A stretch of 36,487 nucleotides of DNA from Alphaproteobacteria bacterium (lineage in GTDB: Bacteria; Pseudomonadota; Alphaproteobacteria; Rhizobiales; JAJRRF01). Below the pieces are notes generated by a model. The model worked only from the letters and a program-made list of their open reading frames with translations, did not search any database and was not told the origin of the DNA. Shown one piece after another: positions 3,942 through 33,124 of this stretch (positions within the stretch are counted from its first letter, which is position 1; each line of letters begins with the position of its first letter). The stretch covers positions 1-36,487 of the forward strand of contig JAJRRF010000274.1 of the NCBI GenBank assembly GCA_024279735.1, read 5' to 3'. Made by a program: the position numbers and the translations under genes.

Positions 3942-4412
3942 ATGAAGGCCATTTTAAGAACTTCACTCACCCTTTTTGCCCTGCTCATGGCGGCCAGCCC
4001 CGCTTTTTCCCAAGCCAACAGGTTTACCATGACCCCATCCGACAATGGCTTTTTAAGGCTTGATACCCATACTGGAGCGATTTCCATCTGCAATAACAAT
4101 GATGGCCAGTGGAATTGCACGAGCCTGGCTCCAAAAGAACAGAGCCTCCCTTCAGGCCGGAACAACGGAACTGTTTCCGACGATGTAACCAAGCTACAGC
4201 AAGAAAACAAGGAACTGAAAGCAGAGATAAGAAAACTTGAGGAAGAGATTTTCAAGATAAGCAGGAGCAACCCTGGGAACAAACAGCTCAAGCTGCCTTC
4301 TGAGGAAGATGTTGACAAGGTTATGGGCTTTATGGAACGTATGATTGAGCGTCTCAAAAAAATGGGAAAAAACCTTCAGGACGACAATACAAAATTTGGC
4401 ACCCCGCTCTAG
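3942..4412 (+). CDS. Small secreted coiled-coil protein, conserved near yjbQ
   Basis: A 156-residue protein with a clear signal peptide (LFALLMAASPAFS, cut after about residue 23). A short conserved segment follows (RFTMTPSDNGFLRLDTHTG, then CNN..GQWNC, two cysteines), then a coiled coil (about 85-110, QQENKELKAEIRKLEEEI) and a C-terminal helix (SEEDVDKVMGFMERMIERLKKM). I recall this architecture from alphaproteobacterial proteins of unknown function: a small beta-rich head with a Cys pair, then a coiled coil, then an 'LPSEEEVDK...FMERM' tail. The ribosome site AAGGAAACAGCC sits just before ATG 3942. Its stop codon TAG (4410-4412) is the first bases of the repeat at 4409-4453. The gene probably acts in the periplasm; function unknown. 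Confidence 0.8.
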   Translation: MKAILRTSLTLFALLMAASPAFSQANRFTMTPSDNGFLRLDTHTGAISICNNNDGQWNCTSLAPKEQSLPSGRNNGTVSDDVTKLQQENKELKAEIRKLEEEIFKISRSNPGNKQLKLPSEEDVDKVMGFMERMIERLKKMGKNLQDDNTKFGTPL

Positions 4413-4453
4413 TGCATAGTGCGAGCAAAGCGAATCGATTTGCTTACACTATG
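4409..4453 (+). repeat. Palindromic repeat left of yjbQ (copy 1)
   Basis: The unit begins CTAGTGCATAGTGCGAGC. CATAGTGCGAGCAAA (4415-4429) and TTTGCTTACACTATG (4439-4453) pair at 13 of 15 positions, giving a long hairpin. A second, inverted copy lies at 5089-5123, with 28 of 35 bases matching. The unit supplies the TAG stop of the upstream gene. Confidence 0.75.
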
Positions 4454-4515
4454 AACCCATTAGTGTCTGACCAAATATTCAGGCAGAACCCTTTGACAAA
4501 AATATAGGAGACAGG

Positions 4516-5010
4516 ATGAAACTAGGCTTTAATACGTCCACCAGCAGCAACAGGGGGATTTCTGCCAGCTCCCTGTTTCAACAAAACCTTATCCTGGAAA
4601 TTCAGACACCGTGCCGTGGCTTTACCGAGATAACAGAACAGGTCAATCACTGGATTGACAGCCTGAAAATCGACAACGGCCTGTTGACAGCCTTTATTTG
4701 CCATACTTCGGCCTCCCTGCTCATCCAGGAAAATGCTGACATCACCGTCCAGTATGACTTGCTTGACCAGCTTGATGTCCTTGGGCCGGTTGCAAGCCAT
4801 TACCGTCATTCCAATGAGGGCGCAGATGATATGCCTGCCCATATCAAGTCCATGCTGACCCAGACAAGCCTGACCATTCCTGTCCAGGACGGGAAAACGG
4901 TTTTGGGAACATGGCAGGGTATCTTTGTGATTGAGCACCGCTCCCAAGCCCATACCAGAAAAGTAGCCCTTCACTTTCTCGGTGAACAAACCTTGGATCA
5001 GGACAGTTGA
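4516..5010 (+). CDS. yjbQ: YjbQ family protein (UPF0047)
   Basis: A 164-residue protein of the YjbQ/UPF0047 family, small trimeric enzymes reported to have weak thiamine-phosphate synthase activity. The true cellular role is unsettled. Family marks seen: FICHTSASLLIQENAD (about 60-75), the H-rich patch HYRHSNEGADDMPAHIK (about 96-112), and the C-terminal signature LGTWQGIFVIEHRSQAHTRKV (about 130-150). The N terminus is about 20 residues longer than in typical members, but ATG 4516 is preceded by a strong AGGAG ribosome site five bases away, so the start is well supported. The gene lies between two inverted copies of a palindromic repeat and converges with the rhodanese gene. No Trp or His of the signature is missing. 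Confidence 0.9.
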   Translation: MKLGFNTSTSSNRGISASSLFQQNLILEIQTPCRGFTEITEQVNHWIDSLKIDNGLLTAFICHTSASLLIQENADITVQYDLLDQLDVLGPVASHYRHSNEGADDMPAHIKSMLTQTSLTIPVQDGKTVLGTWQGIFVIEHRSQAHTRKVALHFLGEQTLDQDS

Positions 5011-5088
5011 CAGCAGGAATCCAGAGCAACCTGCAAGCAGGTTCGGTCAGTCGACCTTGCTCTAGCCCTTTAACTGCGCATTTAACCC

Positions 5089-5123
5089 GCAAACCGTAAC
5101 GGCTTGCTCCCACTATGCACTAG
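5089..5123 (-). repeat. Palindromic repeat right of yjbQ (copy 2, inverted)
   Basis: The complement of this stretch begins CTAGTGCATAGTGGGAGC and matches the unit at 4409-4443 at 28 of 35 positions; the outermost 20 bases differ at one. It supplies the TAG stop (complement of 5120-5122) of the rhodanese gene. It contains its own small hairpin, GCAAGCCGT with ACGGTTTGC. Confidence 0.75.
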
Positions 5124-5494
5124 CCAGCCTTCTTCACTGGATAGCGACTATTTTCCCAACTGATCATGCCGCCCTGCAACTGGGAAACATCTTTAAAACC
5201 AGCCTTTTCCAGAACCCTTACAGCAGGGATAGAGCGTGTCGCAGACCTACATATCACAACCAGGGGCTTGTCTTTTTCAAACGGCAACGCATTGACCTGG
5301 GTTCTGATGATGCTGAGAGGTACATTGAGGGTTTTGGCAATATGCCCTCCCTCCCACTCTCCAACAGTCCTAACATCTATCAGGTTCGGGCGTTTTTTGG
5401 GATTTGCCAGCTGACGCTTTAGGTCAAGCGGCAACACTTCGGGTACAGACCCGATTGGCAGCCACCAAAATATGCCCACTAGAAAATCTTTCAT
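5120..5494 (-). CDS. Rhodanese-domain sulfurtransferase
   Basis: A 124-residue single-domain rhodanese. The domain covers about 22-120, with LIDVRTVGEWEGGHI (38-52) and the active-site loop CRSATRS, catalytic Cys82. Proteins with this fold carry sulfane sulfur on the Cys as a persulfide. A hydrophobic N-terminal stretch (FLVGIFWWLPIG, 4-15) may tether it to the membrane. The start ATG 5494 is preceded by AGGGA at 9-10 bases. It converges with yjbQ. Rhodanese of this type is often fused to or next to a DUF2892 membrane domain (as in YgaP); here the DUF2892 gene is 28 kb away at 33135. Confidence 0.9.
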   Translation of the reverse strand: MKDFLVGIFWWLPIGSVPEVLPLDLKRQLANPKKRPNLIDVRTVGEWEGGHIAKTLNVPLSIIRTQVNALPFEKDKPLVVICRSATRSIPAVRVLEKAGFKDVSQLQGGMISWENSRYPVKKAG

Positions 5495-5522: not shown

Positions 5523-5579
5523 GGACACCTGCAAAATAACCGAATCGTTTCGCTTGATCCTTTATTTCTGAGAGTATCC
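5523..5579. repeat. GGACAC-ended repeat, internally deleted copy
   Basis: The left part GGACACCTGCAAAATAACCG matches the left end of the 155-bp copy at 32970. The right part CTTGATCCTTTATTTCTG (5553-5570) is identical to 33098-33115. The roughly 95 bp between them in the long copy are absent here. The two ends are imperfect inverted repeats (GGACAC and, complemented, GGATAC). It ends at the stop codon of the symporter gene. Confidence 0.65.
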
Positions 5580-7807: not shown

Positions 7808-8346
7808 TCTTACGGTTTCCTCGTCAAAATTGCTCCCTGTAGGGCGAACCTAAAGTCTTATCTAAAAAGACACGCCAGACTCTCAGGGTGATTCAATTCA
7901 TATTTTTCACTATAATTGTAGAGACAGGGCATGCCCTGTCTTGCTTGCCACAAGATAAAACTAATATTCTTGATACCTTTTAAGGCAAGGCATGCCTTGT
8001 CTCTACGTTTTAGCCCTGCTTAAAATCCCTAATATCGATGGATTGAATTGCCCTGCCAGACTCTAGATGGGTTTGCTCCAGAATTTCAAGCCCCAAAGAT
8101 ATAAAGTTGAACATTATCATAGATTTATGTCTGCCTTACGTCCAGCCCCTCCAATTCACAATATTTTTTAAAGTGATATGGTAATTATACCAGCATGATA
8201 AGGTAGTGGCTGAATATAGCTGGCATCATGTTTCATGCAATGATAGGACAATGGATAAAATGTTGTCCTATCCATTTTCCCGAACCACCCAGAATAGCCA
8301 GCCATCCATCCCTAATTTCAAAGCCAGTTATCAGGTATTGCCTCCC
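7808..8346. other. Intergenic region carrying MITE copy A
   Basis: A divergent gap between the DUF4212 gene and xthA. It contains a 172-bp MITE (7884-8055). In-frame codons run on upstream of xthA to 8206, but the conserved exonuclease sequence starts only at ATG 8347, so this part is treated as non-coding. Confidence 0.6.
7884..8055 (+). mobile_element. ISAs1-like MITE, copy A (172 bp)
   Basis: Ends are CAGGGTGATTCAATTCAT (7884-7901) and, complemented, CAGGGCAATTCAATCCAT (8038-8055): 15 of 18 identical. It is flanked by a perfect 9-bp direct repeat CCAGACTCT (7875-7883 and 8056-8064). Inside are two palindromes, AGACAGGGCATGCCCTGTCT (7922-7941) and AAGGCATGCCTT (7987-7998). There is no room for a transposase. 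A CAGGG end plus an 8-10-bp duplication is what I know of the ISAs1 family; assignment to that family is inference. A second copy is at 22497-22669. Confidence 0.85.
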
Positions 8347-22395: not shown

Positions 22396-22684
22396 GGTTT
22401 TTACTCATTGTTTATGAAGGCCTGTCATTCAACAGCAGGCAATATCACAAAACCATGAAGTATAAAATGGATTAACAGCTACAAGCCTAATAACCTCAAG
22501 GCAGTTCAATTCATATATTTTAGAGATTTCAAACAAGGTTTAAGCGTAGAGACAAGGCATGCCTTGTCTTAAAATCTATCCAAAACAACCGTTTTATCAT
22601 ATAGTCAAGCAAGACAGGGCATACCCTGTCTCTACAGTTTCAGTGAAAAACCATAAATTGGATTGCCTGCAATAACCACCAGTT
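22396..22684. other. Gap carrying MITE copy B
   Basis: The region between the carboxypeptidase stop and the aminotransferase start is mostly the 173-bp MITE (22497-22669). The roughly 100 bp at its right side should contain the aminotransferase promoter; no clear boxes are seen. Confidence 0.5.
22497..22669 (-). mobile_element. ISAs1-like MITE, copy B (173 bp, inverted)
   Basis: Ends are CAAGGCAGTTCAATTCAT (from 22497) and, complemented, CAGGCAATCCAATTTAT (to 22669). The flanks TAATAACCT (22488-22496) and CAATAACCA (22670-22678) match at 7 of 9 positions, as expected for an aged 9-bp duplication. Aligned to the complement of copy A it shares the ends, both internal palindromes in the same order, and blocks such as CAAGCAAGACAGGGCAT. 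It starts 15 bp past the carboxypeptidase stop codon, so its hairpins may end that transcript. Confidence 0.8.
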
Positions 22685-32462: not shown

Positions 32463-32792
32463 TTCGCCCTCATTTATTAGTTGTATATTACGATTAGATC
32501 GTTTGAATTTGGGTTTATGATGGTATGAATTTGGAGATACAAAGGCCATATCTTGCACAAGGCCTTTATACTCACCAGGACAAGCCCCCTCTTTTTAAGT
32601 GCTGAAAAACCTTGGTGAAAGCAGGGTTGACAGGCTTGTCCCTGAATTGGCAACAGCAAAATATATGGAATTGCCGCCAAAGTACCTGGCTTTATGGCAC
32701 AACACATAATTTTGCCTCAAAATATTCAGGCAATTATGTCCAAAAAGCAGGTCTTCCCTAAACATTATAATATTCTTATGTTTTAATACTTA

Positions 32793-32880
32793 GAGCACCC
32801 TCCAAATGAACCAAATCGCTTAGCTTGTTCTTTTGCTCGCCAGCGTCGTTTCAAAAATACGTGTATAGCCCGCAGTCCAG
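32793..32880. repeat. GGACAC-ended repeat, partial copy
   Basis: GAGCACCCTCCAAATGAACC, then AATCGCTTAGCTTGTTC and CGTCGTTTCAAAAATACG align with the left half of the copy at 32970. The right half is missing. Confidence 0.55.
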
Positions 32881-32922
32881 TCCAAGATTTTCCTGTCACC
32901 TTGATAGCCAAACACAAAAAAA

Positions 32923-32945
32923 CCCAGTCCTGGCTTCAGGACGGG
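32923..32945 (-). terminator. Bidirectional terminator-like hairpin
   Basis: CCCAGTCCTG and CAGGACGGGG form a stem with one mismatch around GCTT. An A-run precedes it and TTTTC follows. It most likely ends the DUF2892 transcript on the minus strand, through the repeat at 32970-33124. Confidence 0.65.
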
Positions 32946-32969
32946 GCTTTTCTTGAGCTATCTTTGTTC

Positions 32970-33124
32970 GGACACCCTCAAAAATAACCGAATCATTTAG
33001 CTTGTCCTTTTATCCGTCAGTGTCGTTTCAAAAAGTCTTGCATAGCTCGCTATACATCCCTTTTTGACCTAACTGACAAACAAAATTACTGCGCTATCTT
33101 GATCCTTTATTTCTGCTTGTATCC
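32970..33124. repeat. GGACAC-ended repeat, full copy (155 bp)
   Basis: The ends are GGACACCCTCAAAAATAA and, complemented, GGATACAAGCAGAAATAA, an imperfect inverted repeat. Inside, TCAAAAAG (33030-33037) and CTTTTTGA (33059-33066) enclose an ATAGCTCGCTAT hairpin. Ends and parts recur at 5523-5579 and 32793-32880. No open frame inside. Confidence 0.65.

Follow-up and report, generated by a model that had tools for sequence, protein, structure and literature searches.

How the stop codons of two unrelated genes on opposite strands come to lie in the arms of an inverted repeat that encloses a third gene, yjbQ, is the question raised by the window analyzed here, a stretch of 36,487 nucleotides representing contig C26 of a 3.04-Mb genome in 308 contigs. 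The initial annotation had described this arrangement, and its base-level observations were reproduced: CTAGTGCATAGTG occurs exactly at 4409–4421 (+) and 5111–5123 (−); a repeat search returns arms of 35 nt (4409–4443/5089–5123) that are 80% complementary, i.e., 28 of 35 bases, with 645 nt between them; a single base differs in the outer 20; and TAG at 4410–4412 and at 5122..5120 terminates the plus-strand ORF 3942–4412 and the minus-strand ORF 5120–5494, respectively. The 35-base palindromic unit that it had delineated is a genuine match but an incomplete one, the right copy being a full element of ~103 bp and the left copy a short derivative. We consider it likely, with a probability of roughly 0.85, that a non-autonomous mobile repeat family inserting at CTAG explains both the coincidence with stop codons and the flanking of yjbQ. 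The features of the locus are as follows:

3942–4412, + strand: upstream gene for a small secreted-type hypothetical protein (tblastn to loci L123, L124, L127 and L128)
4409–4412, + strand: CTAG target/left tetranucleotide of the left copy, whose TAG (4410–4412) serves the upstream gene as stop codon (sequence, ORF list)
4409–4463, + strand: left copy, a short derivative with CTAG and the hairpin CATAGTG...CACTATG, then TTAG, hairpin 2 missing (3' limit ~4463; pattern match)
4516–5010, + strand: yjbQ (UPF0047, PF01894; Pfam E 3.4e-37)
5021–5123, − strand: right copy, full-length subfamily A, with body 5025–5119, left CTAG 5120–5123 and right end CTGG 5021–5024 (covariance model, alignment with 46 other copies)
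5062–5065, no strand assigned: internal CTAG between hairpins 1 and 2 of the right copy, the same position as the nested-copy insertion site on contig C107 (sequence)
5120–5123, − strand: left CTAG of the right copy, whose TAG is the rhodanese stop codon (sequence, ORF list; rhodanese C-terminus full length compared to locus L125)
5120–5494, − strand: rhodanese-like gene (PF00581; Pfam E 8.1e-15), convergent with yjbQ, an order also found in L125

A genome-wide search with CTAGTGCATAGTG returned 69 matches at up to one mismatch, 35 of them exact, while the reversed-pattern control returned none, and the pair in the window is therefore not a chance resemblance. The motif represents the left end of an element of ~106 bp, organized as CTAG, hairpin 1, CTAG, hairpin 2 and CTAG, whose right end is recognisable in 47 of the 69 aligned copies, most of which give one ~106-bp element. 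In the A element, hairpin 1 is formed by GCATA..GCAAATCG/CGATTTGC..TATGC, and hairpin 2 by GGGCAAGGTCggctGACC..CCTGCttGCAGGTTGCYC, after which CTAG follows. Hairpin pairing is kept through compensatory changes, namely U-A to C-G at one pair in 12 sequences and two-sided changes (11 and 15) at two further pairs. A covariance model from which the CTAG ends had been left out recognized at least ~124 places in the genome at E<1e-3, a lower bound since 150 of 1017 candidates were scored; it assigns the left copy in the window 30 bits (E 6e-4) and the right copy 96.4 bits (E 1.6e-20). A second subfamily, B (AGCATAATGAAGAC...TTTTGCTCTAG), has its left end represented 40 times in the genome compared to zero in the control, and A/B-like hybrid copies exist beside the two subfamilies. 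Together these amount to at least 139 copies in the 3.04 Mb, and the 139 obtained after adding the B copies were examined further.

Among the 78 copies classed as full-length, which were selected for having both ends within one base of CTAG, the tetranucleotide is exactly CTAG at 48 left and 60 right ends; the remaining left variants include TTAG (11), ATAG (5) and GTAG (1), while the outer base of the right CTAN is G in 60 and A in 5 copies. CTAG is the only terminal inverted repeat in most copies, long inverted ends being present in two (on contigs C175 and C269). With 139 copies of ~106 bp, none of which lies inside an ORF call, the family is short, non-autonomous, multi-copy and intergenic, as MITEs are.

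The relation of the copies to gene ends was assessed on the genomic stretches surrounding the hits, by taking as a gene any ORF of ≥90 codons directed towards one of the two ends of a copy, a definition that involves no trained gene finder. By this measure, one end falls exactly on an ORF stop codon in 52 of the 139 copies (34 at the left and 18 at the right end), the stop being TAG in 51 cases and TAA in one, while the other 87 copies (63%) are not on a stop codon. The suggestion of the initial annotation that the repeat inserts at stop codons is thus borne out in effect, but the specificity proves to be for CTAG, and most copies lie elsewhere. One way in which such a coincidence could arise is that the element brings its own TAG, thereby making a new stop on landing and truncating or trimming the gene, as the TAG is part of the terminal CTAG and all frames of a full-length copy reach a stop within ~42 nt of its left end. 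Stops created in this manner would spread over the three frames, whereas at the offsets expected for the two remaining frames only seven ORFs stop, the distribution of 52:2:5 favouring the TAG frame (p~3e-18 under equal frames). Furthermore, the proteins that end at an element are full length against their family profiles, as seen for HolB (365/366), GAPDH (329/330), SodB (193/193), the TorF porin (244/244), ChpT (209/211), RsmD (192/194), SoxX (77/78) and a pteridine-reductase-like SDR (258/261), these being the element-ended proteins with an informative full-length profile. In the window, the hypothetical protein ends in ...PL, as do its counterparts in L124 and L123, whose stops are TAA and TAG, respectively; the C-terminus of the rhodanese-like protein is within a residue or two of that of its L125 homologue. 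The genes are thus untruncated, indicating that the element occupies pre-existing gene ends rather than creating them, and we regard truncation by the element as very improbable.

The target is CTAG, and not stop codons as such, as indicated by three observations. On contig C107, an A element is split precisely at the internal CTAG by an insertion of ~103 bp; CTAG borders the insertion on either side, and the host copy is otherwise intact. The ~40 uninterrupted A copies represent the empty counterpart of this site. On contigs C46 and C185, B and A elements are arranged head to tail with one CTAG common to both. Finally, TAG is preceded by C in 39 of 51 element-associated TAG stops compared to 22 of 68 TAG stops that belong to these loci but not to an element (p=2.5e-6). 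CTAG reads identically on the two strands and is located at both ends, so that either orientation keeps C-TAG, which explains why left as well as right ends meet stop codons. In non-element DNA, a stop codon is formed by 22 of the 102 CTAGs that lie outside gene interiors, as opposed to 52 of 139 for the elements, and stops are consequently over-represented relative to the available non-coding CTAG (odds ratio 2.2, p=0.01). CTAG specificity by itself may thus not explain the whole pattern; combined with the loss of harmful insertions, it gives most of the stop pattern, with a modest remainder. That the element is directed to stops beyond the availability of CTAG, as a mobile element seeking stop codons as safe sites, for example through a transposase with a preference for exposed DNA at the 3' ends of genes, or through a benefit of a hairpin behind the stop, appears distinctly unlikely.

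In the scenario that we favour, i.e., insertion of a non-autonomous element at CTAG, the mobile unit would comprise ~102 bp, consisting of the 98-bp two-hairpin body plus a terminal CTAG. It would insert at CTAG and, more rarely, at sites differing from it by one base (e.g., TTAG), restoring CTAG on both sides of itself, so that the stop of a gene ending in ...C-TAG would stay exactly in place irrespective of side or orientation. We infer that the element transposes, and that insertions at gene-end C-TAG and at intergenic CTAG survive while those inside genes are purged by selection; C+TAG at a gene end would be a place where landing does no harm. The flanking of yjbQ would accordingly follow from two insertions that struck the ends of two unrelated genes ~700 bp apart.

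Two further explanations centre on the pair itself and on its hairpins. The initial annotation had considered a mobile cassette around yjbQ, and the inverted orientation of the copies, 645 nt apart, is what would be expected if they mobilised the gene as a composite unit. The left copy is a short derivative, however, and a comparison with relatives revealed the same gene order without the repeats in distant alphaproteobacteria: the hypothetical gene precedes yjbQ in L123, L124, L127 and L128, and yjbQ and the rhodanese-like gene are convergent in L125. This conservation indicates that the copies in the window are separate insertions. Moreover, the copies are dense, with eleven close pairs within 750 bp in several arrangements; ten of these are other than the window pair and enclose other sequences in other orientations (two of the ten representing the same nested C107 insertion), so the bracketing of yjbQ is not special. 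The cassette is therefore rejected, and a composite unit has next to no probability. Of note, the small secreted-type hypothetical gene directly upstream of yjbQ is kept in the four distant alphaproteobacterial loci at ~30% identity, and its conserved position hints at a possible functional link with yjbQ.

The second explanation, that the repeat is retained at gene ends by selection for a role as (double-sided) terminator or as stabiliser of mRNA 3' ends, draws on the strong hairpin of the left copy (−22.8 kcal/mol, z −3.3), on the covarying stems and on the flanking genes, which are co-directional in 56, convergent in 32 and divergent in 13 cases. This scarcity of divergent flanks also fits purging from promoter regions. 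The right copy, however, folds overall no better than shuffled sequences (z −1.4 on one strand and −0.5 on the other), 87 of the copies are off stop codons, and the hairpins are not followed by a T-tract, only one of 50 gene-end copies being terminator-like. In six of these 50, the gene's own intrinsic terminator follows immediately on the far side of the element (zero in shuffles), the arrangement that insertion between a stop codon and its terminator would produce. The double-sided terminator of the initial annotation thus finds no backing in these data; a dedicated terminator role is unlikely and selective retention for either function improbable, while an incidental effect of the element on mRNA 3' ends is possible.

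The enzyme that would mobilise the family was sought among the Y1 and IS630 genes of the genome, and none of those examined has matching ends. The genome encodes two Y1_Tnp genes. The first (C83:742-1322, L047) is of the Y1/RAYT type and is associated with its own GTAG-REPs (GTAGGGGCGCATTGCATGCGCCC), which are located at its 5' side and present in 14 copies in the genome; the second (C205:640-1400, L068) lies between inverted GGTGACAGTTTACTAAATACA repeats with 12 genome copies and corresponds to a TIR-type RAYT. Neither gene has ends that match the family, and around the single, decayed IS630 gene at the end of contig C259 no such ends were found in the 2.1 kb read. A 4-bp target duplication was rejected, because a variant at the left end does not recur at the right (0 of 9 copies with both ends variant), while a 2-bp TA duplication is inseparable from the CTAG ends. 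At the outer base, the left end is more variable (C48, T11, A5, G1) than the right one (G60, A5), with p=0.04 in a paired sign test on the whole tetranucleotide, which mildly favours an IS200/IS605-like arrangement, in which the left end comes from the target and the right end belongs to the element, over an IS630-type TA duplication. A peel-and-paste Y1/HUH enzyme of the IS200/IS605-RAYT type is thus slightly favoured over a DDE transposase of the IS630 type. For the latter, the true target would be TA within CTAG, with TA duplicated and an element running G...C, and the preference of IS630 for TA in CTAG is established (Tenzen & Ohtsubo 1991, as cited in PMC2170065); a 107-bp repeat of IS630 type, RUP, is known (PMC2229807), and the decayed gene on C259 testifies to the presence of such an enzyme gene. 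Given the asymmetry of the outer bases, the fact that little beyond CTAG is common to the two ends, and the lack of matching ends at the C259 locus, we consider an IS630-type enzyme a tentative alternative.

Several known systems resemble the family in part. GTAG-REP/BIME sequences with their RAYTs (PMC3733652, PMC6006769) are likewise small, palindromic, intergenic and multi-copy, with a TAG-ending tetranucleotide at the foot of a hairpin. They differ in having GTAG (or GTGG) 5' of the hairpin, whereas GTAG is found at 1 of the 78 full-length left ends here and CTAG occupies both ends and the middle, and in their size of 20-40 bp as opposed to a ~106-bp bipartite unit; furthermore, no RAYT flanked by the CTAG element was found in this genome. 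The pneumococcal BOX repeats, in which 36 CDSs end in a repeat-encoded stop while strong evidence of truncation is absent (PMC3049150), similarly supply stops without evident truncation, but are modular (boxA/B/C), of other sequence and with proposed ISSpn2-like ends. RUP and IS630-type MITEs (PMC2229807) are comparable in length (~107 bp), intergenic location, copy number (~100) and TA-containing target, yet RUP has IS630-Spn1-like terminal inverted repeats where most copies of the present family have CTAG alone common to both ends, and no match to these ends was seen in the 2.1 kb read around the single decayed IS630 gene of the genome. With IS200/IS605 and their non-autonomous derivatives the family shares subterminal hairpins at both ends, a left tetranucleotide plausibly taken from the target and the lack of a 4-bp duplication; no TnpA with matching ends was found in this genome, and membership is putative. 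The sequence family is new, as is its possession of CTAG internally as well as at each end, while its behaviour is already known in kind from GTAG-REPs and pneumococcal BOX. It offers a countable reason for why REP and BOX repeats 'provide' stops, in that a TAG-containing target regenerated at both ends would render gene ends harmless, and it is a lead to a CTAG-specific transposase.

The consensus was also searched in 297 genomes of the same order and 385 of the same class, all of which lie outside the genus and family of the host, and one true copy was found elsewhere, in genome G087, a member of another family. This copy (C36:1908-2011, L190) is 87% identical, has TTAG at its left and CTAG at its right end, and occupies an intergenic position on a contig of 4.8 kb, upstream of an LpxH-like gene; either a transfer or a contig foreign to the G087 assembly would account for it. 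A weak, short match in genome G290 was dismissed as a second outside copy, as the covariance model did not confirm it. Pattern searches gave chance matches only in the same-order genomes and no match to YTAGTGCATAGTGCRAGCAAA in GTDB r220 contigs, and searches of plasmids and of Rfam for the element also returned no match. The family is usable as a marker of one uncharacterised alphaproteobacterial lineage.

Other repeats are present in the window. Inverted pairs of GTAG-tagged palindromes (GTAGAGACAGGGCATGCCCTGTCT) are located at 7915-8008 and 22545-22650, the two places being mutually inverted copies, which suggests a GTAG-REP dimer family separate from that of the CTAG element. At 32773-33050, a 101-nt unit is directly repeated with 72% similarity and has a 38-nt motif in common with 5528-5565.
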